From the NCBI GenBank assembly GCA_938015425.1, contig CALLPQ010000137.1:1-40985 (forward strand): DNA of 40,985 nt, read 5' to 3'. This DNA comes from an uncultured Parvularculaceae bacterium. GTDB taxonomy: Bacteria > Pseudomonadota > Alphaproteobacteria > Caulobacterales > Parvularculaceae. A program made the translations under genes and the position numbers. Shown piece after piece: positions 9,906-37,411 of this stretch. Under the pieces are notes generated by a model. The model did no database searches and was not told the origin of the DNA. It saw only the letters and a program-made list of their open reading frames with translations. The stretch's first letter is position 1, and each line of letters begins with the position of its first letter.

Positions 9906-10394
9906 ATGATATTGTCGCGTTTTTCTTTATTAATTGCACTTGCTTTATTTTCCAGCTCCCTCCTGCAAGGGTGCATCTCTGTGCGTTCGACCCATGGTTA
10001 TGCACTAGAACGTGGAACCGAAGAACTGACCGCCAATATCGGCCTTGATACAAAAGAAAGTATAATTGCGAAATATGGGGAACCTTCCATTACATCCACT
10101 TTTACGACTAATAGTTGGTATTATCTAGCCAGTGTTGACCAGACCCGTGCCTTCCTGAAACCAAAAACCAATGATCGTAAGGTGGTTGCTTTTCATTTTG
10201 ACGAAGAAGGCAAGGTTAAAGAAGTTGAAGATTTTACACTTGATGATGGTGAAAATATCAGACAGGTCTCCCGCGTTACCCCGACTCGCGGCCGCGAGCT
10301 TTCTTTTTGGGAACAGCTTTTAGGTAGCGTTGGATCACTACCACTACCGGGTGGCCAGCAACAAACCGGACCGGGCGGACGCCCCGGCGGTTAA
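9906..10394 (+). CDS. bamE: outer membrane assembly factor BamE (SmpA/OmlA)
   Basis: A lipoprotein of the BAM complex that inserts beta-barrel proteins in the outer membrane. The N-terminus is a signal peptide with lipobox LLQGC (Cys23). The SmpA/OmlA core follows: GLDTKESIIAKYGEPS, then WYYLASV and VVAFHFDEEGKV. The C-terminus ends in a Gly/Pro/Gln-rich tail. The ATG at 9906 has an AAGG about 10 bases upstream and is preferred over the TTG at 9900. It is divergent from cbp3 and convergent with thiL. Confidence 0.92.
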   Translation: MILSRFSLLIALALFSSSLLQGCISVRSTHGYALERGTEELTANIGLDTKESIIAKYGEPSITSTFTTNSWYYLASVDQTRAFLKPKTNDRKVVAFHFDEEGKVKEVEDFTLDDGENIRQVSRVTPTRGRELSFWEQLLGSVGSLPLPGGQQQTGPGGRPGG

Positions 10395-14187: not shown

Positions 14188-14631
14188 GCTCTTCAACTCC
14201 TGCGAAATAAATTTAACCGTTATATACGATGCTCAATCTTAAACCGCAATGCAGCGTCTCATGATTGTGAGAACGAGCATAATCTTCCCCCCGAAGCCTC
14301 AATAATAGCAGCTGTAATAAAGTAGTTTTGTAACTTGCAACCATACAAAAAGAACAAAACGATAACATAAAGTGTCAGCTGTTTAAGCTGCACATGATGC
14401 TTTAATTAAAGCTAAAAACTGATAATGATATATTCTTAAACTATGCACTTATCTTTTATAACAGCATTATTAACTTGCACATGAATGATTATATAGCTAT
14501 CGCATAGCCCATATTTAACAAACTATAAATCATGCCAAGAAATTATACTGTGCACAAATAAATATTAAAAAATATATTGCCAACAATACCATTTTTTAAA
14601 ATATTTTATGACAATTCAGGAAGGACATATA
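14188..14631. other. AT-rich intergenic region between glyA and mucR-like gene
   Basis: No gene is visible. The region is markedly AT-rich with A/T runs, most so within 230 bases of the mucR-like start. It contains a perfect 14-bp palindrome GCTTTAATTAAAGC at 14399-14412 and an imperfect CAGCTGTTTAAGCTG at about 14376. MucR-type proteins bind AT-rich DNA and commonly repress their own genes, so this is a likely autoregulatory target (inference). No riboswitch was recognised upstream of glyA. Confidence 0.6.
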
Positions 14632-19910: not shown

Positions 19911-20390
19911 TTAGGCAACATCACTATCCCGTAAGATTTTTACATTATCTTGGGGTGCTATCGCTGCATCATTCCCGTTAATAGTTATTTTGCGGGGCTT
20001 TTTAGCCTCGGGGATTTCGCGTCTCAAATCGATATTGAGAAGCCCGTTTTTTAGCTCGGCGCCCGTGACAATCACATGTTCCGCAATCTGGAAACGGCGT
20101 TCAAAAGCGCGTGCGGCAATCCCTTGGTGTAGGAATTCACGAGGAGTATCCTCCTCACTTCGCCCAGCCACCACTTTTAGCTCGTTTTCTTGCACTTCAA
20201 CGTCAATATCTTCTTCGCCAAAGCCCGCAACCGCCAAGGTAATACGGTAGTCATTTTCGGCGACGCGTTCAATATTATAGGGAGGATATCCACTACTCTC
20301 GACTTTGTTACTGACTGTTTCCAGCAGGTCGAAAACGCGGTCAAAACCGACAGTTGAGCGGTAAAGGGGGGTTAAATCGTAATTTCTCAT
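19911..20390 (-). CDS. Hsp20 family small heat shock protein (IbpA type)
   Basis: 159 residues with a full alpha-crystallin domain at about 30-130: YPPYNIERVAENDYRITLAVAGF, then the ELKVVAGR strand and GAELKNGLLNIDLRREIPE, characteristic of the class A (IbpA/HspA) proteins of alphaproteobacteria. It binds unfolding proteins under heat stress. The ATG at 20390 follows AGGAAAG; an upstream in-frame start at 20414 would lie inside the thermometer hairpin and is rejected. It has its own heat-shock-like promoter, RNA thermometer and terminator, so it is a single-gene unit. Confidence 0.95.
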   Translation of the reverse strand: MRNYDLTPLYRSTVGFDRVFDLLETVSNKVESSGYPPYNIERVAENDYRITLAVAGFGEEDIDVEVQENELKVVAGRSEEDTPREFLHQGIAARAFERRFQIAEHVIVTGAELKNGLLNIDLRREIPEAKKPRKITINGNDAAIAPQDNVKILRDSDVA

Positions 20391-20498
20391 TTTCTTTCCT
20401 TCTTCTAAAAGCAAGGGTTAAACAGGAATTTCTGGTATTTCCCGCCAATTATGGCCGGGTCATCAATCCGTGAAATCCCAGCAGAGTCACATGACCTC
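20391..20498 (-). promoter_or_regulatory. ROSE-like RNA thermometer in the hsp20 5' leader
   Basis: The leader's last hairpin pairs CCTTGCTT (20409-20416) with AAGAAGG (20398-20404), which contains the start of the Shine-Dalgarno, leaving one G bulged in the UUGCU side. This is the signature of ROSE elements (repression of heat shock gene expression). A second hairpin, CCCGGCCA/TTGGCGGG with a bulged G, is at 20441-20459. The 5' limit is set from the predicted promoter. At low temperature the hairpin would hide the ribosome binding site and open with heat (family knowledge). Confidence 0.75.
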
Positions 20499-20505
20499 TG
20501 CTCCT

Positions 20506-20537
20506 ATAGATGTAATATCGCCAAATCATCTTTCAAG
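20506..20537 (-). promoter_or_regulatory. RpoH (sigma-32)-like promoter of hsp20
   Basis: CTTGAAA (20531-20537) is followed after 18 bases by CATCTAT (20506-20512) on the minus strand, close to the alphaproteobacterial heat-shock consensus CTTG...CYTATNT. It would start transcription near 20498, giving a leader of about 108 nucleotides, a usual ROSE length. The -10 match is only partial. Confidence 0.5.
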
Positions 20538-23114: not shown

Positions 23115-24347
23115 TTATTTGCCGATTAATGTTTCCAACCGGTTTTCAAATCGTTTTAACTTTGGGGCCCATCCATAATGATCCACCACAAGCTGTCTGG
23201 CATTCTCGCCAATCACCGTGCCGTTTTTTGATCCATCTAACACTGCTATTATTTCATTGCCCATTGACTTGGCATCGTCCGCAATAAGAATGTTTTTTTC
23301 GTCTTCAACATTTACGCCTTGCGCTGCGCCACTGGTCGCCACAACAGGTTTTGCCATCGCCATGGCTTCTAATACTTTGTTTTGAATACCGCGCGCAACC
23401 CGCAAGGGTGCAACTACCATTGACGCACTCTTTAGCCACGGACGCACATCCGCCACACGGCCCGTCACTTTTATATTATTATGCCCATCCATTGCTTTAA
23501 TTGTGGCGGCAGGGTTAGAGCCGACAATCGCAAAGCGACATTGTTCTCTGCGCTTTAAAATATCCGGCCAAACGGTTTCAACGAACCATTGCACCGCATC
23601 AATATTGGCCTGATAATCCATTGCCCCCACAAAAACAATATCATTAGCGCCGATCTCACTATTAACGTCAATCTCACCATTAAAGTCTGCATCAGGATCA
23701 AAGTAGACCGTATCAACACCGTTTTCCCAATAGTCAACTGTGTTTTTTAAGTCATCACGATCGTTAAATATTTTTGCTTCTTGCGGGGTAATGGCGAAGG
23801 CGATATCCGCTTGATTAGCCAGTTGACTTTCAACTTTTGCAAGCACGCGACCTTCACGCCGATAAACCGCCCCCATTAACGAAGAGCTGGCCTGTCCATA
23901 TGCGCGCCATTTTTCTGCGTCAGAATCACAAAAATCAATCAGGGTTGCAATTTTCGTAGCAGCGGATTGTTCAACCAAATAAGGCGCCATGGATGATGAG
24001 AAAGCAATTTGTGCAACACAGGGATATTTCCGTCTAACCTTAGATATATATTTCTTCATCACCGGCGACTGATAATAGGTTAATGATAAAGCCTCACCCG
24101 TCAGCAATCCTTTGAGTGACTTCAAGCGCGCTATTTTGGGAGATAAAGGTAACAAAGAACAGGATTTTGTTATACTTTCTAAAAACTCCTTATGCACCAT
24201 ATCCTCAGGGTCATCCACAAAACAACCCAAATGAACATTATAGCGTTCCGTAAGATGACGCAGCAAGTTCCACGAGCGAATTTTGTCGCCTTTATCGGGA
24301 GGATAAGGGATGCGATGTGCAAGGAAAAGAATATCCGATTTTGACAT
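23115..24347 (-). CDS. XrtA-locus glycosyltransferase (TIGR03087 family)
   Basis: 410 residues, GT-B fold of the GT4 type. The N-terminus ILFLAHRIPYPPDKGDKIRSWN is the hallmark of the PEP-CTERM/XrtA-associated glycosyltransferase family; the C-terminal half has the donor site (DIVFVGAMDYQANIDAVQWF, then RVARGIQNKVLEAMAMAKPVVAT). It probably adds one sugar of the repeating unit on the cytoplasmic side. The ATG at 24347 shares its A with the FemAB stop (TAATG); the longer frame to 24413 lies inside the FemAB gene. Last gene of the locus. Confidence 0.92.
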   Translation of the reverse strand: MSKSDILFLAHRIPYPPDKGDKIRSWNLLRHLTERYNVHLGCFVDDPEDMVHKEFLESITKSCSLLPLSPKIARLKSLKGLLTGEALSLTYYQSPVMKKYISKVRRKYPCVAQIAFSSSMAPYLVEQSAATKIATLIDFCDSDAEKWRAYGQASSSLMGAVYRREGRVLAKVESQLANQADIAFAITPQEAKIFNDRDDLKNTVDYWENGVDTVYFDPDADFNGEIDVNSEIGANDIVFVGAMDYQANIDAVQWFVETVWPDILKRREQCRFAIVGSNPAATIKAMDGHNNIKVTGRVADVRPWLKSASMVVAPLRVARGIQNKVLEAMAMAKPVVATSGAAQGVNVEDEKNILIADDAKSMGNEIIAVLDGSKNGTVIGENARQLVVDHYGWAPKLKRFENRLETLIGK

Positions 24348-25426
24348 TAGGCAAAATGACGGGCTAGAACGCCCCCTCCAAAATTTGCGAGGGGTAAAGG
24401 TAGCTTGCGCCACACTTTCGTGGCAACCGCAAATTTAGGATTATTAGGGTTTATGTCGGGCACAGTATTATCTTTAACCAGTTGATATTGATATTCTAAA
24501 GCTTGTGGTTCTATACCCCATGTCTTTTTATATCCAAATGATCCCGTATCATATTTGCTGCGGCCAAAGTCAAACTGTGTCACACCCCGATCCGCAGCCC
24601 GAAGCATTTGTTGCCAATAGATATAATCAAACGCCCGCAACGCGCGAGCCTCGGGTGTTGCCCCTACATAATAAGGCATCACACAATCATGATGATAAAA
24701 ACTGATCAGGGAAGACACCGGCACCCCGTCATTTTCAACAGTAAGCAAATCACACTCATCAGAAAAAACATCAAGAATATTTTTGACAAACCTTTTAGGA
24801 AAAATCGGCGTCCCTAAATCACGCAATGACCGCGCATAAAGCCCATAGAACTTATCCAAATCGCGCTCAAACGAAAATTTAAGAGCACCGCTTTCAACAA
24901 ACTTAAAAGCCTTGCGAATCTCCGCCCGTCTTTTACGGGGGATAGAGAGCAATATTGCTTCTTCATCGGAAGGTAAAGGCTTAACGAACCCGGCATAAGT
25001 CGTGTTTTTATTTTCCAGATGGGTAAAACTGGCTTTTTCGCTGCGCAACTCAACATAGCCAACGCCTAATTGCTCTCCCACATTTTTAGCCTGCGTTAAA
25101 AGGGTTTGTGCAATATGGATATCATCTGCAATCACACCCCCGCCAACCGTAAACGCCGTGGATATAAGAGCATTGCCCGATATCATGCTTTTCACAAAGG
25201 TCAACGGCAACACCCCGACAAGATGGTCATCACGCAGTGCCATCAAATAATAAGGTTTGTACCCATATGATTTTTGAATAATCTCTGACCAACCAAACCG
25301 GTGAAAAAAACGGCTATCTTTATTGCCTTCAACATAGGCATCCCATCGGGCCTTATCATTAAGGTTCGCTTGAACGATAGAAATTTCAGGGTTTGAGTCA
25401 GGGGTTTCCAATTGTGTCTGCACCAT
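24347..25426 (-). CDS. FemAB-like protein, XrtA/PEP-CTERM-associated (TIGR03019)
   Basis: 359 residues with two GNAT-like halves as in FemAB: DSRFFHRFGWSEIIQKSYGY near the start, IPRKRRAEIRKAFKF in the middle and FDFGRSKYDTGSFGYKKTWG near the end, the last being the most conserved segment of the TIGR03019 group. FemAB proteins use aminoacyl-tRNA to extend peptidoglycan; in these loci a role in aminoacylating or otherwise decorating the glycan is assumed, not shown. It is coupled by TAATG to the glycosyltransferase and lies 33 bases after the deacetylase. Confidence 0.92.
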   Translation of the reverse strand: MVQTQLETPDSNPEISIVQANLNDKARWDAYVEGNKDSRFFHRFGWSEIIQKSYGYKPYYLMALRDDHLVGVLPLTFVKSMISGNALISTAFTVGGGVIADDIHIAQTLLTQAKNVGEQLGVGYVELRSEKASFTHLENKNTTYAGFVKPLPSDEEAILLSIPRKRRAEIRKAFKFVESGALKFSFERDLDKFYGLYARSLRDLGTPIFPKRFVKNILDVFSDECDLLTVENDGVPVSSLISFYHHDCVMPYYVGATPEARALRAFDYIYWQQMLRAADRGVTQFDFGRSKYDTGSFGYKKTWGIEPQALEYQYQLVKDNTVPDINPNNPKFAVATKVWRKLPLPLANFGGGVLARHFA

Positions 25427-25459
25427 TTTTAGCCCAATATAATGAAAGAGGTTTCATGC

Positions 25460-26368
25460 TTATGCTGCAGCGATTAAAGAATCCACATGAAGAGTTTCAT
25501 CAATCCGCGTCCATGTAAAATCATCAATCAACGACTCTAATTTCGGGGCCATTTTATTTAAATTCAAATAATGGCGTAGCTTTGATTTTCGCGAAGCCGT
25601 TTCAATACGGGGTTGATCCACATCTATCTCCCACGGGTGAAAATAAAAGATCAATGAGCTTCCTGATTCTTTTTCAGCTTGCTTTAATAATGTCCGTGCC
25701 GCCACATAAGGCATCGCCCTAAACCAACCACCACCAGCGCAACTCACGCGTTTTCCCATCACAGTCGTCGTGGCCACGGGGCACTCGGTAAAATCAGACC
25801 CTTGCAAAGGTTTAAACGGTGTTTGCGGGGCGTTTGGATCTCCATAATGATCATGGGCAATGGGGTGCGAAGAAGAAGAATAGCGATAACCAAGTCGCGC
25901 TAATACGTCGTGGGCAAAAGGTGTGCGTTGATCCATAGAAAACCCGGCGGCACGATATCCCGTAACTTCAACCCCGCCAATATCTTCTAAAATCTTCTTG
26001 GTACGTCCCGCATCTTCAAAAAATTCTTTTTCGTTCTGGTCAAAAACCTTTATGTGCTCATACCCATGGCTAGCAAGTTCATGACCACGCCCAACAATTT
26101 CGCGAATTAATGCGGGGTCGCGCTCTGCAACCCAGCCAAGTGTAAAAAAAGTTGCTTTTATATTTTTACGGTCAAATAAATCAAGGGCCGCCCGTGTGCT
26201 TTGTCCAACACGCAGTTCAAATCCATCCCATGAATTACGGGGAATAACATCAGAAAACCCCCACACCTGAAAATAATCCTCAACATCAACTGACATGCCA
26301 TGTTTTCGCTGAGAGGGTTTTCCCGGCACCGATGATGGATCGCTATTCAGGTCTTCTACTCTATCCAT
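25460..26368 (-). CDS. XrtA-system polysaccharide deacetylase (TIGR03006, DUF3473)
   Basis: 302 residues with the NodB-type fold: catalytic-metal motif SVDVEDYFQV (Asp28), SHGYEH (His101, His105), GYRAAGFSMD and the C-terminal FYFHPWEIDVDQPRI, the last typical of the DUF3473 extension. Removes acetyl groups from the glycan, probably from N-acetylhexosamine. No signal peptide is seen, so it may act on the cytoplasmic side of the membrane or need a different export route. Twelve bases follow the ATPase gene. Confidence 0.94.
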   Translation of the reverse strand: MDRVEDLNSDPSSVPGKPSQRKHGMSVDVEDYFQVWGFSDVIPRNSWDGFELRVGQSTRAALDLFDRKNIKATFFTLGWVAERDPALIREIVGRGHELASHGYEHIKVFDQNEKEFFEDAGRTKKILEDIGGVEVTGYRAAGFSMDQRTPFAHDVLARLGYRYSSSSHPIAHDHYGDPNAPQTPFKPLQGSDFTECPVATTTVMGKRVSCAGGGWFRAMPYVAARTLLKQAEKESGSSLIFYFHPWEIDVDQPRIETASRKSKLRHYLNLNKMAPKLESLIDDFTWTRIDETLHVDSLIAAA

Positions 26369-26380
26369 TATATAGTGCCT

Positions 26381-27859
26381 TTAAACTTTATATTCGTCTT
26401 TCAAATCGTCTATTATGGTATCGGCTTTCGTAATATGCCGTTCGATTTGAATGATGTTATCAGCCGTTTTTTCTTCCATATCCGCAATTGCGTTATAAAT
26501 ATCGCGGTTTCCGCTATGGGCCTGACGCAAATCACTGCGCAATGACAATATATGATCCATCATACTGGAAGGCAACTCTTCTTGTGCACCTTCATTTTGC
26601 GCACTTTCTCCCTGCACACTTTCTCCCTGCGCACTTTCTCCATGGGCACTTTCGCTTTGGCCACCTTCATTTCGTAATGACAAGGGCTTTTCATCTCCAC
26701 GCTGTTCGCTCTCACGGTTTTGCGCTTCGACATCCCCCAAAGGGGCGTCAGGTTTAGATGCATCAACTAACGGCGAAACGGCCTGACTATAATCGATTGC
26801 ATCATCGACGCGTCCACCATCATCTGGTTGCTGATTTTTTGATATTTTTGCAATGGCTGTAGCAACATCTTTTAAGGTTGTCACATTATTCGTTTTTGTA
26901 TTTTTGGCTTTAATATTATCGGCCTGATCAACACTCATATCTATAGCGTTCGTTTGAATATCACGCTGCTGAGCGAAGTCCGATGCATTTTGCGCACTCA
27001 CGTTCAGATCATCAACTTCAGCAACAGAGCTAACCAATGCGGGTCTATAAACCTCTTTTTGTAATTCTTCCGCAACATTGGTTACAATCACGCTGTTTAT
27101 GAGGTCGCGTTGTTCTAGGGCGCAAAACAACAAAATGCGCGTACACAAATTATTAATGCGGCGCGGAACACCTTGCGTAAATTTATAAATAGCTTCAAAA
27201 GCTTCTTCCGTAAACGCTGGTTTATCAACCCGTCCCACCACGGCTAAGCGATGTTCGATATATTCGCGGGTTTCCATTTCATCCAAAGCTTCAAGATGAT
27301 AGGTTGCGATAATACGCTGGGCAAGCTGTTCCATATCAGGGCGGGCAATCACACTGCGGAATTCTGGTTGCCCAACAAGGAATACCTGAAATAACGGTGT
27401 GCCTTGATAATTTATGTTCGTCAGCATGCGTAATTCTTCGATAGTTTCTAAAGGCAGGTTTTGCGCCTCGTCAACCACCAACAAAACCCGACGCCCCCGA
27501 TTAACATTGTCATATAGAAAATCTTCAAACGCTTCCAGTTCACTGGCGCGTCCCGGGCTTTGAGATTCAATTTGAAACGAGGATAAAATATGTGGCAACA
27601 AATCTTCTGGTGCTAACTGACTGGTTAAAAGATGAGCCGCCAAAACATTATTGTCACTTAACTGTTCAAGCATATGCCCAATCAGCATCGACTTTCCGGC
27701 GCCAATTTCGCCAGTTATAACGATAAATCCTTCAGCTTGACGCAACCCATAATGCAAATAAGCCATAGCCTTTGTGTGGCTTTTGGAACCAAAGAAAAAC
27801 CGTGCATCGGGACTTAGTTTAAAGGGCGCACTGGAAAAGCCAAAATACTCTTCAACCAT
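26381..27859 (-). CDS. XrtA/PEP-CTERM-associated AAA ATPase (TIGR03015)
   Basis: 492 residues. The first ~270 match the family (ExeA/GspA-like AAA+): MVEEYFGFSSAPFKLSPDARFFF at the start, Walker A GEIGAGKS at 50-57, Walker B VLLVVDEAQNL and an arginine-rich VPRRINNLCTR sensor region. The remaining ~220 residues are a polar tail with low complexity, including five 15-bp repeats encoding GESAQ-like units (about 401-425), and end in a coiled-coil-like helix. The usual protein is shorter, so the tail is an extra domain. It probably powers or regulates the export complex; its partner is unknown. The start follows the barrel gene stop by two bases. Confidence 0.92.
   Translation of the reverse strand: MVEEYFGFSSAPFKLSPDARFFFGSKSHTKAMAYLHYGLRQAEGFIVITGEIGAGKSMLIGHMLEQLSDNNVLAAHLLTSQLAPEDLLPHILSSFQIESQSPGRASELEAFEDFLYDNVNRGRRVLLVVDEAQNLPLETIEELRMLTNINYQGTPLFQVFLVGQPEFRSVIARPDMEQLAQRIIATYHLEALDEMETREYIEHRLAVVGRVDKPAFTEEAFEAIYKFTQGVPRRINNLCTRILLFCALEQRDLINSVIVTNVAEELQKEVYRPALVSSVAEVDDLNVSAQNASDFAQQRDIQTNAIDMSVDQADNIKAKNTKTNNVTTLKDVATAIAKISKNQQPDDGGRVDDAIDYSQAVSPLVDASKPDAPLGDVEAQNRESEQRGDEKPLSLRNEGGQSESAHGESAQGESVQGESAQNEGAQEELPSSMMDHILSLRSDLRQAHSGNRDIYNAIADMEEKTADNIIQIERHITKADTIIDDLKDEYKV
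26583..26657. repeat. five in-frame 15-bp tandem repeats in the ATPase gene
   Basis: TGCGCACTTTCTCCC at 26598-26612 is repeated with small changes at 26613, 26628 and 26643, with a more diverged unit at 26583. It encodes Gly-Glu-Ser-Ala/Val-Gln units, so it keeps the reading frame and could vary in copy number by slippage. Confidence 0.85.
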
Positions 27860-27861
27860 TT

Positions 27862-29673
27862 TTAAAAATCCAATACTAATCCAAGCGTCACCGCATTTTC
27901 ACTAAACCTTAGATCATCAACATTCGAAAACCGTTGGGTATGACTATACTCCCCGAACACACGTGCCCGTCCAGTCAGACGGTAATTCGCGCCCACAATC
28001 CCCGTTGCCGTATGGGTAACCCCTTCAAGAGAGGCGGCCAAAGTACAATCACCAAGCAGACCACCCGTCAACGAAATGGGCGACAAACCAAATGCCCCAG
28101 GGGCTTGAAGACAATCGTCAATAGAAAAGCCGGTATCCGCATAGCGATAAGCCGCACTGCCAAATAAAGACACACGCCTTGACAGTGTACGGTTTAAATT
28201 AACCGATGCGTTCACATTCTCAAAACCACGGAAGCCAAAATCTGAATTTTGATAATTCGCATTCGCACTAATTGTAGTTTTATCAAACACACCCACTAAA
28301 CTGGCAAAAGCATTGTTCGAGGGGCCAACACCCACTGTTTGCGCATTAAACCCACCATTACCACTGGCTGTAAGCTGGGTTGATTGTTGAATGATATCAC
28401 GTGGGTTTCCGGTCCCACCCTCACGCAATGTATCGGCAAAATTCAATGTGCGGCGAGAAAGATCGCGTATCTGGGTAGAATTAGAAAGCGCTCTGGTCTG
28501 GAAGGTACGGTTAGCACCAGCCGTAAACCTGAAGCGTCTTGAAATCTGATAGGATGCATCAGCTTGAATAAAATCATCATCAAAACGGCGGCCATATTCC
28601 AAGCGTACCCGCGTCCTTGGCCCAGGACGGGCAACAAAGCCCGCACGCCAAAAAATACCGGATAATTCATCATCATCAAAAAAATCACCCGGAGAATTGG
28701 TATCGATTTCATCGTAACCGATCGCACCACTTAACGCGAATTTCGAATTAAGAGCATATTGCGCTTCAACGCTTAACGTACCTTGCTCAAAAGAAAAATC
28801 GGGGCTCGCCACAGGGTTTCCGTCAAGGCCAAGAAAAGTGGCCCCTTCTTCATCCGTTGTATTCCCGTAAGCTGTTGCCACAAATTGCAAGCGGTCAAAT
28901 AGATTACCACTTGAATAGCTTGCCAACACTTCCTGACTTCTGGAATCATTCAAAAAGGCAGCGATGCCATCATTATCAATAAATGCTTGTGAGAACCGAT
29001 AACGCACTTCAGCAACCGATTCGTTCGCGAATTCATGATAGACATAAGGACTTACAGAATAAGAATTAACCGTTACCCGCTCTCCGCGCGCCGCATTAAT
29101 ATTGGCGGAAGAGGCCGCATTGTCACCCACTAATTGCCGCGCCGTCCCGCCAGCAATATCTAGATACAAATAATTATCAACAATAGTTGCCGTCCCTGCA
29201 GCACCGACTTGCTGATTAACCACAACTTCATCGTCTTCAACCAGATATGAAAAATCGAGATCACCACTAAACAGCGCGGTGAATCTTTGCGTTGCAACAA
29301 TCGCATTAGCCGTAAACAAATTAGACAAAATCGCTTGATCACGCACAGCGCCCGAGGATTCAGACACCAGATCAATATTATCAGAATAGGTCACACGCGG
29401 ACTAACGCTAAAAGCATAACCAAGAAAATTTGATTTCAAACGCAAAGGCGGCGCAGGATCGGCAGCTTGCGCTAACGCACTATCAATAGCCGCCGTTCCC
29501 GCAAGACCCAATACACCGGCCAGCGCAAACGCGCCTACAAAAGCAGATCGCGAAACAGAAGCGTTCAACATTCTCTTTTTAGAATGAACCACCTTCGAAA
29601 CCAAAGATGATAATTCAACCTTTCGTTTACCGCGCATCTTGTCGCTTGGTTTAATCGCAGACTTTGCCCGCAT
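27862..29673 (-). CDS. XrtA/PEP-CTERM-associated outer-membrane barrel (TIGR03016)
   Basis: 603 residues: a basic leader, a hydrophobic signal core (about 48-70) and then a long series of alternating beta strands, such as PRVTYSDNIDLV, RFTALFSGDLDFSYLV, AEVRYRFSQ, RTRVRLEYGRRFDDDF and the C-terminal NAVTLGLVLDF ending in Phe, as expected for an outer-membrane protein. This matches the TIGR03016 group, conserved in these loci and suggested to form or support the export channel. The start is coupled to the tyrosine kinase gene by TAATG. Confidence 0.9.
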   Translation of the reverse strand: MRAKSAIKPSDKMRGKRKVELSSLVSKVVHSKKRMLNASVSRSAFVGAFALAGVLGLAGTAAIDSALAQAADPAPPLRLKSNFLGYAFSVSPRVTYSDNIDLVSESSGAVRDQAILSNLFTANAIVATQRFTALFSGDLDFSYLVEDDEVVVNQQVGAAGTATIVDNYLYLDIAGGTARQLVGDNAASSANINAARGERVTVNSYSVSPYVYHEFANESVAEVRYRFSQAFIDNDGIAAFLNDSRSQEVLASYSSGNLFDRLQFVATAYGNTTDEEGATFLGLDGNPVASPDFSFEQGTLSVEAQYALNSKFALSGAIGYDEIDTNSPGDFFDDDELSGIFWRAGFVARPGPRTRVRLEYGRRFDDDFIQADASYQISRRFRFTAGANRTFQTRALSNSTQIRDLSRRTLNFADTLREGGTGNPRDIIQQSTQLTASGNGGFNAQTVGVGPSNNAFASLVGVFDKTTISANANYQNSDFGFRGFENVNASVNLNRTLSRRVSLFGSAAYRYADTGFSIDDCLQAPGAFGLSPISLTGGLLGDCTLAASLEGVTHTATGIVGANYRLTGRARVFGEYSHTQRFSNVDDLRFSENAVTLGLVLDF

Positions 29674-30725
29674 TATCTGTCCCTCCGATGATCGCCAGGT
29701 GTACCCAACGAATTCTCGCGCCTTGCACCGCGAGGATAATATTCTGAATATGATTCATAATGTGAACCGCCCGCCCCGATAAGACATTTATTCAAAACAA
29801 GGCTAATATTTGGATTAACATCCAATAATTCCTCAAGCGCCGAGGTAATCGCTTGTTCTGGCGTGGAATCCGCCTCAACAACAAACAATATCTCATCTAC
29901 ATAGGGCGCTAAGACAATGGCCTCAGTGGTCGCCAATACTGGCGGCGCATCAATCACAACGATTTGGTCTTTATTGGTCTTCTTCAACATATTTAACGTA
30001 CGCTGCGCCGCAGAAGACCCAAAAAGGTCAGATGGACGATCAACGAGATGACCTTCCGGCACAATGGTTAAAGGTCCTTGACGACTCTTTAGTCCCACAT
30101 CTTCAAGGCGTAAATCCGCATTCAACATTAAATCGGTTAGGCCATATTGCTCTTGCAATCCAAAATGCGATTGCACTTTAGGGCGCGGACAATCAGCATC
30201 CACCAACAACACATCAATCTCATCTTCCAGGGCAAGACTTAATGCGAGGTTGATCGAAGTAAACGTCTTGCCTTCAGCAGGACGCGTGGACGTTACCATC
30301 ACTGTATTACGGCGATCCCCAGAGCGCACATCAAGGCCGTTCGGGGTCGAATTTGACCGCAAGAAACCCAATAGGCGCAATAAACGACGTTTCAAATAAC
30401 GCAATTCAAGCATAAGCTGGGTTGTTTTTTCCGAGGTCGTAAAAAACCCTTGGCGCTTCAACCGCGACATATCCAGATCAAATTGTTTGCACTGGCGCAT
30501 AATCCGCTCGGCATTTTGCCGGGCTTGTCTTTGTTGAAATAGCTGTTGCTGGGAGCCATTGGATTGGCTTCCATTTTGATGAGGCGCATTTTGTTGAGGC
30601 CGGTTTTGTTGTCCCATTTCGGGACGACGCATTTGCGACTGAACCTGTTTTTCCAACTGGTCTACGTTAGAGCGTGCATCAGTGACTAAATTATCAACTT
30701 GAAAAGCCTTTTCGATCAAACCCAT
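29673..30725 (-). CDS. XrtA-locus tyrosine autokinase (TIGR03018)
   Basis: 350 residues, BY-kinase type without membrane segment. Walker A STRPAEGKTF at 146-155, A' VLLVDADCPRP at 173-182 and Walker B IVVIDAPP near 255-262 are intact. The C-terminus has a cluster of tyrosines (YESYSEYYP), the expected autophosphorylation sites. An N-terminal segment (36-72) is strongly Gln/Asn-rich. With the chain-length protein encoded next to it, it controls polymer length. Coupled by TAATG on both sides. Confidence 0.93.
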   Translation of the reverse strand: MGLIEKAFQVDNLVTDARSNVDQLEKQVQSQMRRPEMGQQNRPQQNAPHQNGSQSNGSQQQLFQQRQARQNAERIMRQCKQFDLDMSRLKRQGFFTTSEKTTQLMLELRYLKRRLLRLLGFLRSNSTPNGLDVRSGDRRNTVMVTSTRPAEGKTFTSINLALSLALEDEIDVLLVDADCPRPKVQSHFGLQEQYGLTDLMLNADLRLEDVGLKSRQGPLTIVPEGHLVDRPSDLFGSSAAQRTLNMLKKTNKDQIVVIDAPPVLATTEAIVLAPYVDEILFVVEADSTPEQAITSALEELLDVNPNISLVLNKCLIGAGGSHYESYSEYYPRGARRENSLGTPGDHRRDR

Positions 30726-32263
30726 TACCTTAAACCCTTTTCAAGTACTGCAGTAGCTTCTGTTTTATCACCGCCCTTTAACAAATTAGCTTGCGGACGC
30801 AACACAGAGACATAAATATAAACAAAACACAGCAAGAATAGTACCGAACAGGCGGTCATTAACCTTAAGAAATCGAACTGGACTTTTCTGCGGGATTTTC
30901 CTGTTGGTACGGTCCCTACCGCCCCTAACACGGGCAAACCAAATGCTTCTTCCAAATCAGCCGACTGGGTGTAGGTACGCTCGATAAAGGTCAAGACTAG
31001 GGCCAAAGCACCGCCAACACCAAAGGCAAGAACAATCACAGCCAATATCAAAAGTTTACGCGGCGGGTCAGTTGGGACTAAAGCCTTACGAGGGCGCTCG
31101 AAAATTGTATATTCAAGCCCTTGCCCGTCACTATCGGCAGTTTTTCTCAAAGCCAATTGATCACGACTATTAATCAGCTCACGATACGTATTTTGGGTAT
31201 TCGCAAAATTACGTTCTAACCGCTGTAACTCCGCTACCACAAGAGGGGCCTGGCCGCTGGTCACCGTCGCTGTTTCTATTTCCGTCAGCAATCGCTCTTC
31301 CCGGCGCTTTAACCCTCGTAATCGATCTTGGGTACTACGCAATTCGGAACGCAACCGCAAATATTCCGGATTATCTGGCAAAGCATCATCAGATTCAAGC
31401 CGCGCAATTTGCTGAAGCAAATTTTGTATATCAGGATAATTATCATTATACTGACTGCGCAATTGCGATAAACGCACTTTGAGATCAGCCAACTCACCAC
31501 CCGCCGATACGCGCGGGGTTGAGGCAAGGCGCGCCCGTATTGTCTCTTCACGCGTGCGCGTTTGAGAAATATTATCAAGAATATCGTTTAGCTCTGCGCG
31601 TTTTCTAACCCGCGCTTGATCACTGCCTAAATTAGAAGCCAGTTCCTCCGCATGGGTCCGGCGATATTGGGCAATTTCCTGACTTTGCCGAGACAGTAAT
31701 AAATCTTGCTCGTCAATAAGGGCTTCAATTTTCAACTCCGACGCCTCACTCTCGCGCAGGCTGGCACCCAAATCTTGCTCAATCAAAATATTGACCGCCG
31801 CTTCAACAACTTTCTTGGCAAGCTCGGGGTCATTATTTTTATATTTAATAATGAGATACATATCGCGTGGGCTGGTTATGGAAATCCCACTTTTCACATT
31901 ATTAACAAGCCGCTCCATTTGGGCTTGTTTATCAGAGGCAGATACCCATTCAATATCTGCATCAAGGCCAGCGCGATAAACCATCTCTTCTACATTCGGG
32001 AATGTCAGCAACGAGATTCTCATCACTTCAACACGTTGTTGATAATCAGGACGGGCAGCAACACCTTTCAATAAAGGGTTTAAGCGCGCCTCTTGAATAA
32101 ACACATGAGCCTGACTTTGATATTTATCAGGCAATCTATAAACCGCTGCCCAACCTACCAATGCAGATAACCACGCCACGCACACTATAAGCCAGCGACG
32201 ACGCCACAAACCTGCACCATATCGAATAACCGGTCTGGGTATTTCTGAAAGATCAAACAACAA
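30725..32263 (-). CDS. XrtA-system polysaccharide chain-length protein (TIGR03007)
   Basis: 512 residues, Wzz-type inner-membrane protein. A first membrane segment lies at about 25-45 (RRWLIVCVAWLSALVGWAAV), a long coiled coil spans roughly 160-380 and further hydrophobic segments follow near 405-425 and 465-485. Family motifs include the Wzz-like SQAHVFIQE and the VPTDPPRK segment before the second membrane part. The periplasmic coiled coil and cytoplasmic contact with the tyrosine kinase would set the chain length. It starts the tightly coupled gene group; a 148-base gap separates it from the export gene. Confidence 0.94.
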   Translation of the reverse strand: MLFDLSEIPRPVIRYGAGLWRRRWLIVCVAWLSALVGWAAVYRLPDKYQSQAHVFIQEARLNPLLKGVAARPDYQQRVEVMRISLLTFPNVEEMVYRAGLDADIEWVSASDKQAQMERLVNNVKSGISITSPRDMYLIIKYKNNDPELAKKVVEAAVNILIEQDLGASLRESEASELKIEALIDEQDLLLSRQSQEIAQYRRTHAEELASNLGSDQARVRKRAELNDILDNISQTRTREETIRARLASTPRVSAGGELADLKVRLSQLRSQYNDNYPDIQNLLQQIARLESDDALPDNPEYLRLRSELRSTQDRLRGLKRREERLLTEIETATVTSGQAPLVVAELQRLERNFANTQNTYRELINSRDQLALRKTADSDGQGLEYTIFERPRKALVPTDPPRKLLILAVIVLAFGVGGALALVLTFIERTYTQSADLEEAFGLPVLGAVGTVPTGKSRRKVQFDFLRLMTACSVLFLLCFVYIYVSVLRPQANLLKGGDKTEATAVLEKGLR

Positions 32264-32411
32264 GGGTATCCCCTTTCACACTTTTACTAACTCTACTGAC
32301 GGGATTAATGCTCAATCCGCATTAACCCCGATATTATTTGCGCTTTATGGCCCTTATAGCGTTGATGGCCACTATTGCGCGAAACTGAACCTTCGCGAAA
32401 TACAAAAGGCT

Positions 32412-33047
32412 CTACAAAACGCTTTCTGGTATCAAGATAACGTCACCAGGAAGCACAGGCACATTCGCGCTGATATTTCCGCCGCGTAACAGATCATCCA
32501 ATTTTAAACGGAATGCACTCCGCTTGCCATTAATAGTACGATAAAGCGTCGCGCGGTTACCCGCGGCAAATTCTGTCAATCCACCAACAGCCACCATCAC
32601 ATCAAGAGCTGTCATCCCCTCTTGATAAGGCAGAGCCACCGGTTGCTGGGCTTCACCCAAAACACGAATTTGCTGACCCAAGACTGATGAAAAATCCGTT
32701 ACAATCACGCTGACTTGCGGGGCCTTCACGAACTCACCAAGAACACGCTCTAAATCAGCGGCTAATTGAGAGGGGGTTTTATTGGAAGCCACCATATCTT
32801 CAACAAGCGGGGTTGAGATACGGCCATCGGGGCGCACTGTCACTTCCGTTGAAAGCTCCGGTGCACGCCAGACAAAAATTTCCAATTCGTCATTCGGCCC
32901 GATTAGATAATTGGGAGCTCCTGTTTCCAAATTGGCGACAGATCTGGGTGCCGCAGGAAGTTTTTCACCGCCAAATGTGGTACACGCACTCAACAATCCA
33001 ACTGAAATGGCAATTAATGTGCCTTTCAATATCCCTTTAACTTTCAT
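32412..33047 (-). CDS. XrtA-system polysaccharide export lipoprotein (TIGR03027)
   Basis: 211 residues, Wza-like export protein with poly_export and SLBB domains: YLIGPNDELEIFVWRAPELS at about 48-67, the QVSVIVTDFSSVLGQQIRVLGE segment and the C-terminal VLPGDVILIPES. Signal peptide with lipobox LSAC (Cys22). The ATG at 33047 follows AAAGGATAGG; seven codons more upstream are possible. It is much shorter than Wza, as usual for this family, which makes a separate barrel partner likely. Confidence 0.93.
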   Translation of the reverse strand: MKVKGILKGTLIAISVGLLSACTTFGGEKLPAAPRSVANLETGAPNYLIGPNDELEIFVWRAPELSTEVTVRPDGRISTPLVEDMVASNKTPSQLAADLERVLGEFVKAPQVSVIVTDFSSVLGQQIRVLGEAQQPVALPYQEGMTALDVMVAVGGLTEFAAGNRATLYRTINGKRSAFRLKLDDLLRGGNISANVPVLPGDVILIPESVL

Positions 33048-33446
33048 AATCCTATCCTTTACATTCAAGTTCTTTTAATTCTTAAAATAATTATAATCGC
33101 ATTAGTTGTTAATAATAACGGTAATGACAAACCTTCTTTTTACGTTGGTTATCGTTCCATTCATACACATTTAGTCCTAATTTCAGTGACTTATCCACTA
33201 ATTTCCATTTCTGGCCGTGTATACGCAATATTTTTGCCAGTTATAGTTGCACACAACAGGCATAGTATAAGATTTTCCATAAATAATTGATAATATTCCC
33301 CAAAATAAAGTGTGTTAACGCTTATCTCCTCAATTAATCAGATCATCATTTTCCTAATAAAATCGACTGATAAATATCCAAAATTATCGCATATTGGTCT
33401 GTCTTTAGCTACCTTAATCATATTTTAAAGCGAGCACCCGCTAAAC
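33048..33446. other. intergenic region upstream of the export gene
   Basis: No gene or RNA is recognised. It is AT-rich and lies between the 1022-residue TPR gene and the export gene, both minus strand, so it probably holds an internal promoter of the exopolysaccharide locus. A TATAAT on the minus strand (33090-33095) is a possible -10 box but has no good -35 at 17 bases. Confidence 0.5.
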
Positions 33447-36400
33447 CTATACTTTTTCGGTTAAACGCAACAATTTAGGTATCTCATCATCCAAAATTGC
33501 GGCCATCTCATGATAACCAGCCTTAATTAATGCTTTTTGATAATAAAATGAGGCAATTCCCCCCCGCATTGAGGCAGACTGTTGCAAATATGCCCATCTT
33601 GCATATTCCACATCATTGAGATCATCCAAAGATTTCTCGGGGTCGCTTGCTGCTAAAGGGGCTTTATCAAGAACCAAACGCGCTCGTGCCATAATTAATT
33701 CTTGCTTTAAAAGGGCCTCATTTTGACGGCTCTCCCGATAGGTATCCAGATCCGTTAGCTGAGACCCATAATGACTGCCTTGCGTGTCGCTCTCTTCAGT
33801 CTGCTCTTTGGAACCAGATTGCGTTGCGTCGGACCTATCGGGCCTATCGGACCCATCGGGCCCATCGGCCCCCATAAGCGTAATGGCATTCTCCAATATT
33901 TTTGCCGCCCCTCTGGCATCCCCACTGACACTTAAAAGATTGGCCACAAACAGCGCATCCCGCCCTTGCAGGCGTTCATTCACCGCGAGCCAGTTATTTA
34001 GGATTTTGCGCGTTTTTACCCGATCAGTCCCTTTATTATACGCTGATGAAAGGGCCAGAATTTCTGGTAATTGTAATTTTTTTATTTCTTCTGGCGAGGC
34101 ATTAACGCCAACTGCGGATTTGCGACCTTCCAATAAATCCAGAGCAATTTCCAGCAATGCTTGTGTATGTAACATTTCCCCGGATGTTGCATCATGTGAT
34201 GTCTTATCTTGCTTAAGCTGGATCTGCTTTGCGCCCGGGCCATTGTTTTTATTCTTATCTTCTTTTTTCTTATTCTCACTGGAGCGATCCAACAAAGCTT
34301 TAATAAAAGCCCGCCCATTGGCATCACGGCCATCTTGACTCATATATCCCGAAAATGCATTAACCACGCGCCAATCATCAGTATGCGTCAATAATGCCTC
34401 ACGATAAGCGGCCCCCGCTTGGGGTTGCGCGCCTTTCAGCTCATAGAGTTGGGCAGACAAAAGCATCTCTTCTAAACCGCGATGGAAAGCCCCACCATAA
34501 TTTGCCAGAAAGTCCAAAAGATGGATTGTTTGAGGGGTAAGCCCGTTATTATATCGCTCTGTTGTATCGCCCTCATTCCCTGCCAGTAACTGGTTTAATT
34601 GCTCACCGTCATTGATAGGGGTGACCAAAACAAGTGCCTGCGCCAAGGCTTTAAATATCTGCGGTTTTTCGAGTAAACGTGTATCGGCTTTAGCAAGTTC
34701 TATTGCTTGAAAAAGCGCGCCAGTATGCAGATAATGAAAGACCAGTTGTTCGCCAAAAATTTGCGGATCATATTTATTCAGCTTCGCTTCGCTTTGGCCT
34801 TCTGCATTATTAAAGGATGGTGATGTTTTATAATAATGGGAGAGCCTTGCTGTAGCTAATTCCGGCTTACCTACTCTCACATCTAAATGGTTTAACAAAC
34901 CAATCGCATAAATAGAATCTTGAACACTTTCCGGCAACGCCGTTAAAATCTCACGTGCTTTTTCGGTTTTAAGGTTCACTAACAATAACTCAGCATGCAA
35001 TAATTTCTGGAATGTTTCACAATGATTACTGTCTTGTTCTAGATTAATATCTGCGCATGAAGACATTCTTGATTCAAAATACGCTAATGCTTTTTGCGGC
35101 TCATTAGCATTCCACAACGCGAATAACGCTCTTAGGCGATTAAAATATTGCAAGCGCGGCGCATGCTCGGTCACAATTTTGGCCTTAGGACCAAAAAAAG
35201 ACTGCCTTACGATATTATGTATATTCTGATTTTTCTGATCACCCCCAAGATGATAAACCGACGTTAAATCATTTAAAACCTGCCGCACTACATGATAATC
35301 CCCTTCAAACATTGCCAGTTGATATTGACGATATAAGGAGACATCGATTTGGGGTGCCAGAATGGAAATCTTTTTAACCAGATCCTTAAAACGGCCAATC
35401 TCTTTTTCTTCCAATGTCAATTGAGAGAGTAGAAATAATCCGCGCCAATCATCAGGCGCATTATCCACATGATCAGATAAAATCAACTTCGCTTGCACGT
35501 GATCGCCCAATTCCAATTTCAAGGCTGCCCTGATCAAATGCGCACGTGGCAGAACACTACCGGACCAGTTTTCAATGGAATCGAAAACACTCGCTGCCGC
35601 CCGATAATCCCCTTTCGCCGCGTGTAAAAGCCCGCGCACTTGGCGGATAGGGAGATAGTTAACCGAGCTGTTTTCCAACTGTTTTAACCAACTATCTGCA
35701 TCCTCAAATCGTCCTTCGCGAATGGCAATTTCAATCTCGATTAACTTGCTATCCCACAGGCTCCCCCCCGCATCAATCAATTGTTTGGCCGCCTTAAAGG
35801 CTTTATCAAGATCATTTTCATCTAACGCTATCCGCGCGCGAAACAACCATAAACGTTCTGGAAAGGCATTTGCAGAAATAAGTTTCCGCATGATGTTTGC
35901 GGTTTTTTGATCCTGCCCCAATGCATAATAAGCGCGCGCCTTTAAAAACTGTGCCTCTTGGGTTTGATCAATTTTCTCCGCTGCCAAGATTACGCCGCGA
36001 TAATCTTGAAGGCGCAATCGCGCTTCCCCCACCAGAAAAGACGCTTCGTAAAAATACCGGTCATCAGGTTTGATCTGCAATAAGACCTTAACAGCATCCG
36101 GGTTTTTACCCAACCGCATATAAATACGACCTAGAGAAACCAACTCTTTAGCCAGATTGCCGTCTTCAATTTTTCCCTGGAAGGCATTGATGATAGCATC
36201 AGCACGGTCGAGTTTTTTTGCATCAATCAACTTATTCGCAAATTCGAGGCGTAACTTCAGATTTTCAGGATCGGCTTTAACACGCTTATCAATTGCGACC
36301 AGATCTTCCGATAAATTATCGTCTCCCTTTGTCTCAGGCGCAAGATTATCAAACTTTGCATTAGCCACCACCGTTTGACCATCGACCATATGCAATACGC

Positions 36401-36515
36401 CAACAACCGCCGCGCCAATCACAATAGCCAATGTAAATGCCGATATTACAGCCATCAACACCGCGCTAAAGAATTTAGCACGGAACCAATAGAGGCAATA
36501 ATCTAGGGAAAACAT
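33447..36515 (-). CDS. large TPR-repeat membrane protein of the exopolysaccharide locus
   Basis: 1022 residues. A single hydrophobic segment (about 14-42) anchors it in the inner membrane with the rest probably periplasmic. From about residue 60 to the end there are helical repeats with TPR spacing (for example LGRIYMRLGKNPDAVKVLLQI and RAYYALGQDQKTANIMRKLI). Low-complexity linkers lie near 755-770 and 880-905; the latter contains five 9-bp repeats. It occupies the place of the PEP-CTERM TPR lipoproteins (TIGR02917, PrsT-like) but lacks a lipobox, so the family fit is partial. Coupled to the sugar transferase by TAATG. Confidence 0.78.
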   Translation of the reverse strand: MFSLDYCLYWFRAKFFSAVLMAVISAFTLAIVIGAAVVGVLHMVDGQTVVANAKFDNLAPETKGDDNLSEDLVAIDKRVKADPENLKLRLEFANKLIDAKKLDRADAIINAFQGKIEDGNLAKELVSLGRIYMRLGKNPDAVKVLLQIKPDDRYFYEASFLVGEARLRLQDYRGVILAAEKIDQTQEAQFLKARAYYALGQDQKTANIMRKLISANAFPERLWLFRARIALDENDLDKAFKAAKQLIDAGGSLWDSKLIEIEIAIREGRFEDADSWLKQLENSSVNYLPIRQVRGLLHAAKGDYRAAASVFDSIENWSGSVLPRAHLIRAALKLELGDHVQAKLILSDHVDNAPDDWRGLFLLSQLTLEEKEIGRFKDLVKKISILAPQIDVSLYRQYQLAMFEGDYHVVRQVLNDLTSVYHLGGDQKNQNIHNIVRQSFFGPKAKIVTEHAPRLQYFNRLRALFALWNANEPQKALAYFESRMSSCADINLEQDSNHCETFQKLLHAELLLVNLKTEKAREILTALPESVQDSIYAIGLLNHLDVRVGKPELATARLSHYYKTSPSFNNAEGQSEAKLNKYDPQIFGEQLVFHYLHTGALFQAIELAKADTRLLEKPQIFKALAQALVLVTPINDGEQLNQLLAGNEGDTTERYNNGLTPQTIHLLDFLANYGGAFHRGLEEMLLSAQLYELKGAQPQAGAAYREALLTHTDDWRVVNAFSGYMSQDGRDANGRAFIKALLDRSSENKKKEDKNKNNGPGAKQIQLKQDKTSHDATSGEMLHTQALLEIALDLLEGRKSAVGVNASPEEIKKLQLPEILALSSAYNKGTDRVKTRKILNNWLAVNERLQGRDALFVANLLSVSGDARGAAKILENAITLMGADGPDGSDRPDRSDATQSGSKEQTEESDTQGSHYGSQLTDLDTYRESRQNEALLKQELIMARARLVLDKAPLAASDPEKSLDDLNDVEYARWAYLQQSASMRGGIASFYYQKALIKAGYHEMAAILDDEIPKLLRLTEKV
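33831..33875. repeat. five 9-bp tandem repeats in the TPR gene
   Basis: GGACCTATC and near copies (GGGCCTATC, GGACCCATC, GGGCCCATC, GGCCCCCAT) follow one another in frame. On the coding strand they give a Gly/Asp/Ser/Pro/Arg-rich linker. The GC content is much higher than in the surroundings. Confidence 0.8.
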
Positions 36516-37411
36516 TACCTGCTCCCTACACCAAACAAGGTCACACGGACCGTTTTCAGTATAATGATAATATCCAATATGATACTGAAGTTTTTGATAT
36601 AGTATAAATCATAGGTTAGCTTTTCACGGGCATCATCTACAGATGCACCATATTCATATTCGACTTGCGCCCATCCGGTAATGCCAGGCTTAACCTTATG
36701 GCGATCATTATAGTGAGGAATTTCATCCCCCAAAAGCTGAACAAATTCTGGTCGCTCTGGACGCGGGCCCACAAAACTCATTTCGCCTTTTAAAACATTT
36801 ATTGCTTGCGGAATTTCATCGATCCGTGAGCGTCTTAAAAATTTCCCCAGACGGGTGATGCGTGTATCATTTTTTTGCGCCCACTTGGCACCGTCTTTTT
36901 CCGCATCATTCACCATCGACCGGAATTTAATAACGTCAAAAAGACGCCCGTTAACCCCAACCCGGCGCTGGCGGTAAAACACAGTTCCAGGGGAATCAAT
37001 TTTAATCAGCACAGCAACAACAAGCAAAAGCGGGAACAACACCAAAATCATTGTTAGACTAAGGGTAATATCAAGAAGTCTTTTAGGATAACGCCCCCGC
37101 TTCCTATTCTTCTTTAACAAGGGTTGGTGGATGTGGGTTGCATCAAACTGTGTCAGATCAATTTGCCTTGCCGTTTGGTCACCCCAAAAGGCTGTCCTTA
37201 AGAGGGAGACGCGCTCGGAAAACCGCAGCGTGACATGATCAACAAAAGGCGCAAACCCGCCCACAGAGGCAGATGAAATATTACTTTCACCTCCCTTTTG
37301 TGAAAGTTGTCGCAACAACACCATGGCGACAACAAAGCATATTCCCAAAAGCCCCAACAAGAGCATAAGCTGCCCAAATTCTACTAAAAATACCACAATC
37401 AACAATCCCAA
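36515..37411 (-). CDS. undecaprenyl-phosphate sugar transferase (bacterial sugar transferase family)
   Basis: 298 residues. The C-terminal ~190 match PF02397: KRLLDITLSL plus a membrane segment, VFYRQRRVGVNGRLFDVIKFRSM, SRIDEIPQAINVLKGEMSFVGPRPERPEF and VKPGITGWAQV. It starts the glycan by placing a sugar phosphate on undecaprenyl phosphate. The N-terminal half is much shorter than in the XrtA-locus family TIGR03013 (about 450 residues): one or two hydrophobic segments and a short linker, without the nucleotide-binding-like domain. The start is uncertain: several TTG codons cluster at the frame's beginning, and an ATG lies at codon 16. First gene of the locus. Confidence 0.88.
   Translation of the reverse strand: MGLLIVVFLVEFGQLMLLLGLLGICFVVAMVLLRQLSQKGGESNISSASVGGFAPFVDHVTLRFSERVSLLRTAFWGDQTARQIDLTQFDATHIHQPLLKKNRKRGRYPKRLLDITLSLTMILVLFPLLLVVAVLIKIDSPGTVFYRQRRVGVNGRLFDVIKFRSMVNDAEKDGAKWAQKNDTRITRLGKFLRRSRIDEIPQAINVLKGEMSFVGPRPERPEFVQLLGDEIPHYNDRHKVKPGITGWAQVEYEYGASVDDAREKLTYDLYYIKNFSIILDIIIILKTVRVTLFGVGSR

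Follow-up and report, generated by a model that had tools for sequence, protein, structure and literature searches.

The window analysed here, which is the whole stretch of 40,985 nucleotides from an uncultured Parvularculaceae bacterium, contains a gene for a small heat-shock protein of the IbpA type (hsp20) preceded by a leader with three predicted hairpins. The product of this gene matches PF00011 at 68 bits and its top NCBIfam match is IbpA (180.9 bits, the curated cut-off of 212 not being reached); it is the single PF00011 match in the source genome, which is 78% complete, and it carries residues equivalent to both Arg93 and Tyr34. Toward the gene, the leader presents in order a CTTGAAA box, weak -10 candidates, hairpin I, hairpin II and hairpin III. 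The features of the locus, with the basis for each, are as follows:

20531..20537, minus strand: CTTGAAA, RpoH-type -35 box (placement conserved in family leaders)
20508..20518, minus strand: candidate -10 boxes, both weak (ATATTACAT, 20518-20510, from the matrix; TTACATCT, 20515-20508, picked by eye)
20480..20502, minus strand: hairpin I, AGCAGAG-G-UC/AUGU/GA-CUCUGCU, with a 5'-side bulged G (folds, scan)
20441..20459, minus strand: hairpin II, CCCG-G-CCA/UAAU/UGG-CGGG, with a 5'-side bulged G (scan, 37 C folds)
20398..20416, minus strand: hairpin III, UYGCU paired with the Shine-Dalgarno (SD), one bulged G (sequence, model R1, pair counts in relatives)
20410..20414, minus strand: UUGCU box, anti-Shine-Dalgarno (sequence)
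20397..20404, minus strand: Shine-Dalgarno region AAGAAGGA (sequence)
19911..20390, minus strand: hsp20, IbpA type, 159 amino acids (aa), ATG at 20390 (PF00011 and NCBIfam IbpA matches)

The top named matches of the Hsp20 protein come from a Marinicaulis metagenome-assembled genome (MAG), an unclassified alphaproteobacterial MAG and Amphiplicatus; the NCBI taxonomy places Marinicaulis (now Hyphococcus) and Amphiplicatus in the Parvularculaceae, and the Amphiplicatus hsp20 leader is identical to that of a genome from the window's own family (G013). The hsp20 reading frame stays open through hairpin III (20390-20414, minus strand), and the TTG within the UUGCU box, at 20414, is a possible start that would add 8 residues to the protein; the predicted start is the ATG, which the conservation of MRNYDL-like starts favours. 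Elsewhere in the window, a gene run at about 23115-37411 resembles exopolysaccharide export and chain-length control and includes an XrtA-system polysaccharide deacetylase (25460-26368, minus strand; TIGR03006, 374 bits), and a PrsT-like TPR protein is found at 33447-36515 (67.5 bits, below cut-off).

RpoH most likely transcribes the hsp20 leader from the CTTGAAA promoter. In 32 of 35 family leaders CTTGAA is located between 100 and 158 nt upstream of the ATG, with a CGCCTAnnT-like box 12-14 nt further on, and the -35 box of the window is found at -147 relative to the ATG. Counting both strands, the window contains 16 copies of the 7-mer CTTGAAA, and the -10 candidate has a matrix score of 13.0, which ranks 11 of 589 candidate places; the promoter candidate is supported by position rather than score. 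Of the RpoH-like promoter put forward by the sequence-only reading, the -35 box (20537-20531) is borne out by its conserved placement, and the -10 box is weak. In many family leaders the 5' arm of hairpin I is a recurring CGGAGGC, about 17 nt past the -10 box; the window has a different but paired stem at this place.

A hairpin over the Shine-Dalgarno

Hairpin III (CCUU-G-CUU/UUAG/AAG-AAGG) consists of seven Watson-Crick pairs closed by a UUAG loop, with a folding energy of -4.0 kcal/mol at 37 C, and it stops 7 nt short of the hsp20 ATG. The hairpin with a single bulged G that had been described as masking the Shine-Dalgarno is real (20416-20398, minus strand), and its signature is unique in the 41 kb: among 187 occurrences of UYGCU on both strands, two have the seven template pairs, and only hairpin III combines these with an SD-like stretch and a nearby ATG. 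When the last 45 nt of the leader were base-shuffled, UYGCU with at least seven template pairs arose in 49 of 20000 shuffles.

The conservation of this hairpin was analysed in two sets of hsp20 leaders. The first set comprised 137 distinct leaders, the window included (L001 and L002, which are the window again, and L034, whose leader is the same as that of L012, were dropped). The second comprised 85 of 86 leaders from further genomes (L216 was removed as a duplicate) and excluded matches from genomes already used (G000, G037, G038, G042 and G046) and matches without a protein start; the two sets may overlap in species, as only leaders identical over the last 80 nt were removed. UYGCU is present at -45 to -8 in 133 of the 137 leaders, compared with 5 to 17 of these leaders when slices elsewhere are taken and with 6.3% of dinucleotide shuffles, and it is found in 82 of the 85 leaders of the second set. 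With registers optimised alike, the arms of hairpin III in 136 leaders form 7.54 pairs on average with their own partner versus 6.51 (sd 0.05) when swapped, the corresponding values for the window's family being 7.31 and 6.70 (sd 0.10). Three of five measures in the family alignment (35 leaders, without the window), viz. paired cells, cells changed on both sides (10 versus 3.6) and the covariation score, exceeded all 500 shuffles; the count of pairs with two-sided changes and the count of pair types were not above the 500 shuffles. The picture is stronger than the family's in 32 other alphaproteobacteria, where 96.9% of cells are paired and 30 are changed on both sides versus 5.9 in shuffles. 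The alignments used for these pair counts include related sequences.

A covariance model (R1) built from the 35 family leaders, with the window left out, detects the hairpin III site in the window with a score of 31.6 bits (E 1.7e-6; the runner-up scores 10.5) and finds no second match at E<=1 in the window's genome. A model built from 32 leaders of other, more distant alphaproteobacteria (R2) fails on the window (10.5 bits, rank 3, E 1.4), which we attribute to drift of its SD arm, AAGAAGG, from the common GGAGGA. The Rfam covariance search that the sequence-only reading had proposed as a check likewise scored below threshold: no ROSE match was found in the window at the gathering score or at E<=10, and none of RF00435, RF01832 and RF02523 reached its gathering score in the window or its genome. 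Window matches to SNORD65, MALAT1 and CRISPR families fell far under their cut-offs and were taken as chance.

Rfam at the gathering score also found no ROSE in 20 relatives; a permissive search of 20 loci gave below-cut-off ROSE matches in four (L012, L039, L042 and L055) and none in two Bradyrhizobium hsp20 loci. The classical bearers of ROSE are reported to include Caulobacter crescentus (PMC3669281), and a Caulobacter control genome passed for none of the three ROSE families. Because this control and the two Bradyrhizobium hsp20 leaders were missed, the Rfam ROSE cut-offs are judged insensitive. Across 61 genomes at E<=1, RF00435 had matches in 6 genomes, of which only one (G054) was above cut-off; those below it are located at the hsp20 start in G002, G013 and G026, 29 nt before the hsp20 start in G016, and elsewhere in G001. 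RF01832 gave 7 matches in 6 genomes, including below-cut-off matches at the hsp20 starts of G025 and G038, and passed its cut-off in one of 14 control genomes (E. coli or Methanosarcina). RF02523 was noisy, with 28 matches in 22 of the 61 genomes at E<=1, two of which (G042 and G058) end at the hsp20 start, below cut-off. The R1 and Rfam matches remote from hsp20 that were examined were chance-like, except for ROSE-like leaders in G054. One of these (L185, G054:C24:10871-10965) exceeds the RF00435 cut-off at 67.7 bits, lies before a 68-aa ORF without an IbpA match and has a bulged-G hairpin upstream; it is apparently a ROSE-type element ahead of a non-Hsp20 gene. The suhB/mmgR sRNA (RF00519) was found near hsp20 in a Hyphomicrobiales MAG (L055:234-306, minus strand; 69.7 bits, above cut-off), with a further match below cut-off in L033:1844-1917 (plus strand; 31.1 bits).

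Temperature folding did not discriminate: the unpaired probability of the window SD hardly rises in the folding model (from 0.20 at 20 C to 0.22 at 42 C), and a Bradyrhizobium leader (L072) also stays shut (0.00 to 0.02). This small opening, the silence of Rfam and the chance-level score of R2 are what would be expected if hairpin III were a chance pairing before an ordinary hsp20 gene, with no sensing function. Such an explanation is highly improbable, as the box is conserved, the arms fit their own partners better than swapped ones, and R1 detects the site without having been built on it.

A predicted ROSE-like thermometer and its place among known elements

The element shares with ROSE and ROSE-like elements (Bradyrhizobium ROSE1, E. 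coli and Pseudomonas ibpA; RF00435, RF01832 and RF02523) a predicted 5' UTR placement at a small heat-shock gene, as identified by its PF00011 and IbpA matches, the U(U/C)GCU-SD pairing with a bulged G, and a heat-shock type -35 box. It also shares the presence of several hairpins: within the range of two to four for such elements, three are found by scan and 37 C fold, with hairpin II absent from the best whole-leader fold at 25 C, where another pairing displaces its bulged form. It differs from them in that it falls below Rfam reporting and its heat response is predicted only. The pair formed by the variable Y of the box is U-A in the window, rather than U-G or C-G, since the SD arm AAGAAGG replaces the common GGAGGA. 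ROSE-G (PMC12857270) has in common with the window a bulged-G helix over the Shine-Dalgarno; the features reported for it are CUGCU, an SD strand that carries a second bulged G, and ABC transporter genes downstream, whereas the window has UUGCU and an SD strand without a bulge.

We estimate at roughly 0.87 the probability that the window leader is a ROSE-like RNA thermometer, as predicted from its anatomy and its relatives. These support the thermometer proposed by the sequence-only reading well, the part that failed being the Rfam covariance score; because the three Rfam ROSE families are silent, the element is named ROSE-like by anatomy and is not assigned to an Rfam family by score. The element is a ROSE-like leader in a Parvularculaceae-type alphaproteobacterium. 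It had been expected to extend the range of ROSE beyond the Rhizobiales into an AT-rich lineage; this extension is not new, more than 40 ROSE candidates in diverse alpha- and gammaproteobacteria having already been reported (PMC3669281), and the description as AT-rich is overstated, the GC content being 45.5% in the window and 44.6% in the leader (20391-20502).

In the proposed mechanism, hairpin III would pair UYGCU with the Shine-Dalgarno in the cold and block ribosomes; the bulged G would weaken the helix so that heat frees the ribosome site, a melting step that is carried over from studied ROSE elements. In Pseudomonas, the SD hairpin is reported to melt and hairpin I is not, and hairpin II alone is enough for thermoregulation (PMC3669281); in E. 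coli ibpA the two proximal hairpins are described as stable from 20 to 50 C (PMC9450479). Loss of the SD-hairpin G weakened heat induction in the ROSE-like element of oppF (PMC11342760), and deletion of this G had mixed effects in two Pseudomonas leaders (PMC3669281).

A bulged G in the upstream hairpins

Hairpins I and II repeat the geometry of hairpin III, viz. a stem, a 5'-side bulged G, 2-3 pairs and a 4-nt loop. The base pairs beside the bulge are CC/GG in hairpin II and UC/GA (not CC/GG) in hairpin I. Neighbouring pairs of G-bulge hairpins 15-70 nt apart occur five times in the 41 kb on both strands, two of these being I-II and II-III (41 and 43 nt); the remaining pairs lie at 10384 and, within an AT-rich run where two of the hairpins overlap each other, at 14589 and 14523. 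Two G-bulge hairpins arose in 16 of 3000 shuffles of the window leader.

The same trend is seen across hsp20 leaders, where these counts come from related sequences and are not independent events. When the part upstream of the SD hairpin is folded, bulges of one base close to a loop are a 5'-side G in 47 of 48 cases in the 36 family leaders and in 93 of 99 in the other 101. A scan that takes no account of energy (4 or more pairs in the outer stem, a single 5' bulge whatever its base, 2-4 inner pairs and a loop of 3-6) found, in the non-SD hairpins of the 137 leaders, a G in 164 of 185 5' bulges and in 18 of 56 3' bulges, compared with 158 of 533 bulges in 1188 control tiles of 100 nt (the tiles from L042 and L091 contain a leader). 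By clade (assigned manually, on the basis of record titles, for named loci), G accounts for 59 of 65 5' bulges in the window's family, 25 of 30 in the same order, 47 of 52 in other alphaproteobacteria and 33 of 38 in gammaproteobacteria, the dinucleotide-shuffle expectations of G bulges being 4.2, 3.8, 4.2 and 2.0, respectively. The scan, unchanged, gave G in 108 of 129 5' bulges (shuffle expectation 9.7) and 5 of 22 3' bulges in the second set; of its 22 families, 15 have a G majority, in 5 G makes up half of the bulges or fewer, and 2 lack hairpins of this kind. Pooling both sets, 272 G-bulge hairpins are present in 177 of 222 leaders and none in 45, and the inner arm carries CC in 238 of the 272 versus 4 of 42 hairpins with other bulges. 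The upstream modules aligned too poorly for a covariance model of them.

Folding of the E. coli K-12 ibpA leader gives three hairpins, each with a bulged G, and the ibpB leader has one such hairpin upstream; two E. coli regions, 33 kb in total, contain 6 G-bulge hairpins with CC when both strands are scanned, and 3 of the 6 belong to these leaders. The literature searched, whose coverage leaves out key papers, does not remark on the G bulge of the upstream hairpins. The Rfam RF00435 consensus has an unpaired column directly 5' of CC-uuau-GG in its first hairpin, so the bulge may have been drawn before without comment.

As hairpins I and II leave the ribosome site uncovered, retention of their G for recognition or folding is more likely than for melting. 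One explanation is that the upstream bulged Gs serve folding only, tuning leader stability or folding order so that the last hairpin forms, with no protein partner. We regard this as a serious possibility, at somewhat below even odds: disruption of hairpin I in Pseudomonas is reported to derepress the thermometer and open the SD at 25 C (PMC3669281), and a review gives the stable E. coli hairpins the same role (PMC9450479). Stability alone, however, leaves a 5'-side G next to CC/GG unexplained, given the rarity of G among 3' bulges (only 18 of 56) and the near restriction of inner-arm CC to G bulges. The function of the 5' hairpins is described as not fully understood (PMC3669281).

A second explanation, that the upstream hairpins arose long ago by duplication of the SD hairpin and retain the G by descent, would account for the shared geometry and the fairly even spacing (median distances of 32 nt from one upstream bulge to the next, in 91 leaders, and of 36.5 nt to the bulge of the SD hairpin, in 176). 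It is unlikely, since the outer stems vary freely among leaders yet the G stays, which would be expected to decay without selection.

A third explanation, which we favour tentatively and at well below even odds, is that the upstream bulged-G hairpins are docking sites for an Hsp20 oligomer acting as feedback repressor. The MS2 coat-protein operator is a hairpin with a 5'-side bulged purine (A), two pairs and a 4-nt loop, at which the protein represses translation; the bulged base is G in the window and the analogy is one of geometry only. E. coli IbpA is reported to bind the 5' UTR of its own mRNA and repress it, a process that requires Arg93 and relies on oligomers (PMC10474464). The window shares with IbpA autorepression, as described for E. 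coli, Cedecea neteri and Vibrio harveyi, the gene type, the Arg93 and Tyr34 equivalents and the kind of leader; RNA binding is shown for those three proteins only (PMC10474464), and would be a prediction for the window protein. All 137 proteins of the first set have an Arg93 equivalent (Tyr34 in 128, the remainder having Trp or Phe), as do 79 of 85 in the second; the 6 of 85 leaders without Arg93, 3 with and 3 without the G module, are too few to inform. More broadly, instead of a single thermometer hairpin accompanied by passive helpers, ROSE leaders may possibly be tandem arrays of one recognition module (a 5' bulged G, CC/GG and a short loop, about 32-37 nt apart), gripped by an Hsp20/IbpA oligomer for autorepression until unfolded proteins titrate it away.

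Several observations count against docking. IbpA is said to repress sigma32 (PMC10474464), and a scan of E. coli rpoH that began 230 nt upstream of the gene and ended 250 nt inside it gave no hairpin combining a G bulge with CC; the bulged-G module is absent from three leaders in a single family (f40) whose proteins retain Arg93; and a bulged-G hairpin stands ahead of the non-Hsp20 ORF in G054 (L185). The rpoH and G054 results also favour the folding-only explanation.

The window element extends a known class by one genome, and the bulged G of the upstream hairpins matters more. If the tandem-array reading is true, the bulged G of the SD hairpin would be both the last copy of a protein-binding site and the weak point for melting. 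The available text of PMC10474464 does not name the IbpA site within the leader, and the upstream bulged G offers precise point mutations in E. coli ibpA that bear on both the role of the 5' hairpins and the IbpA binding site.
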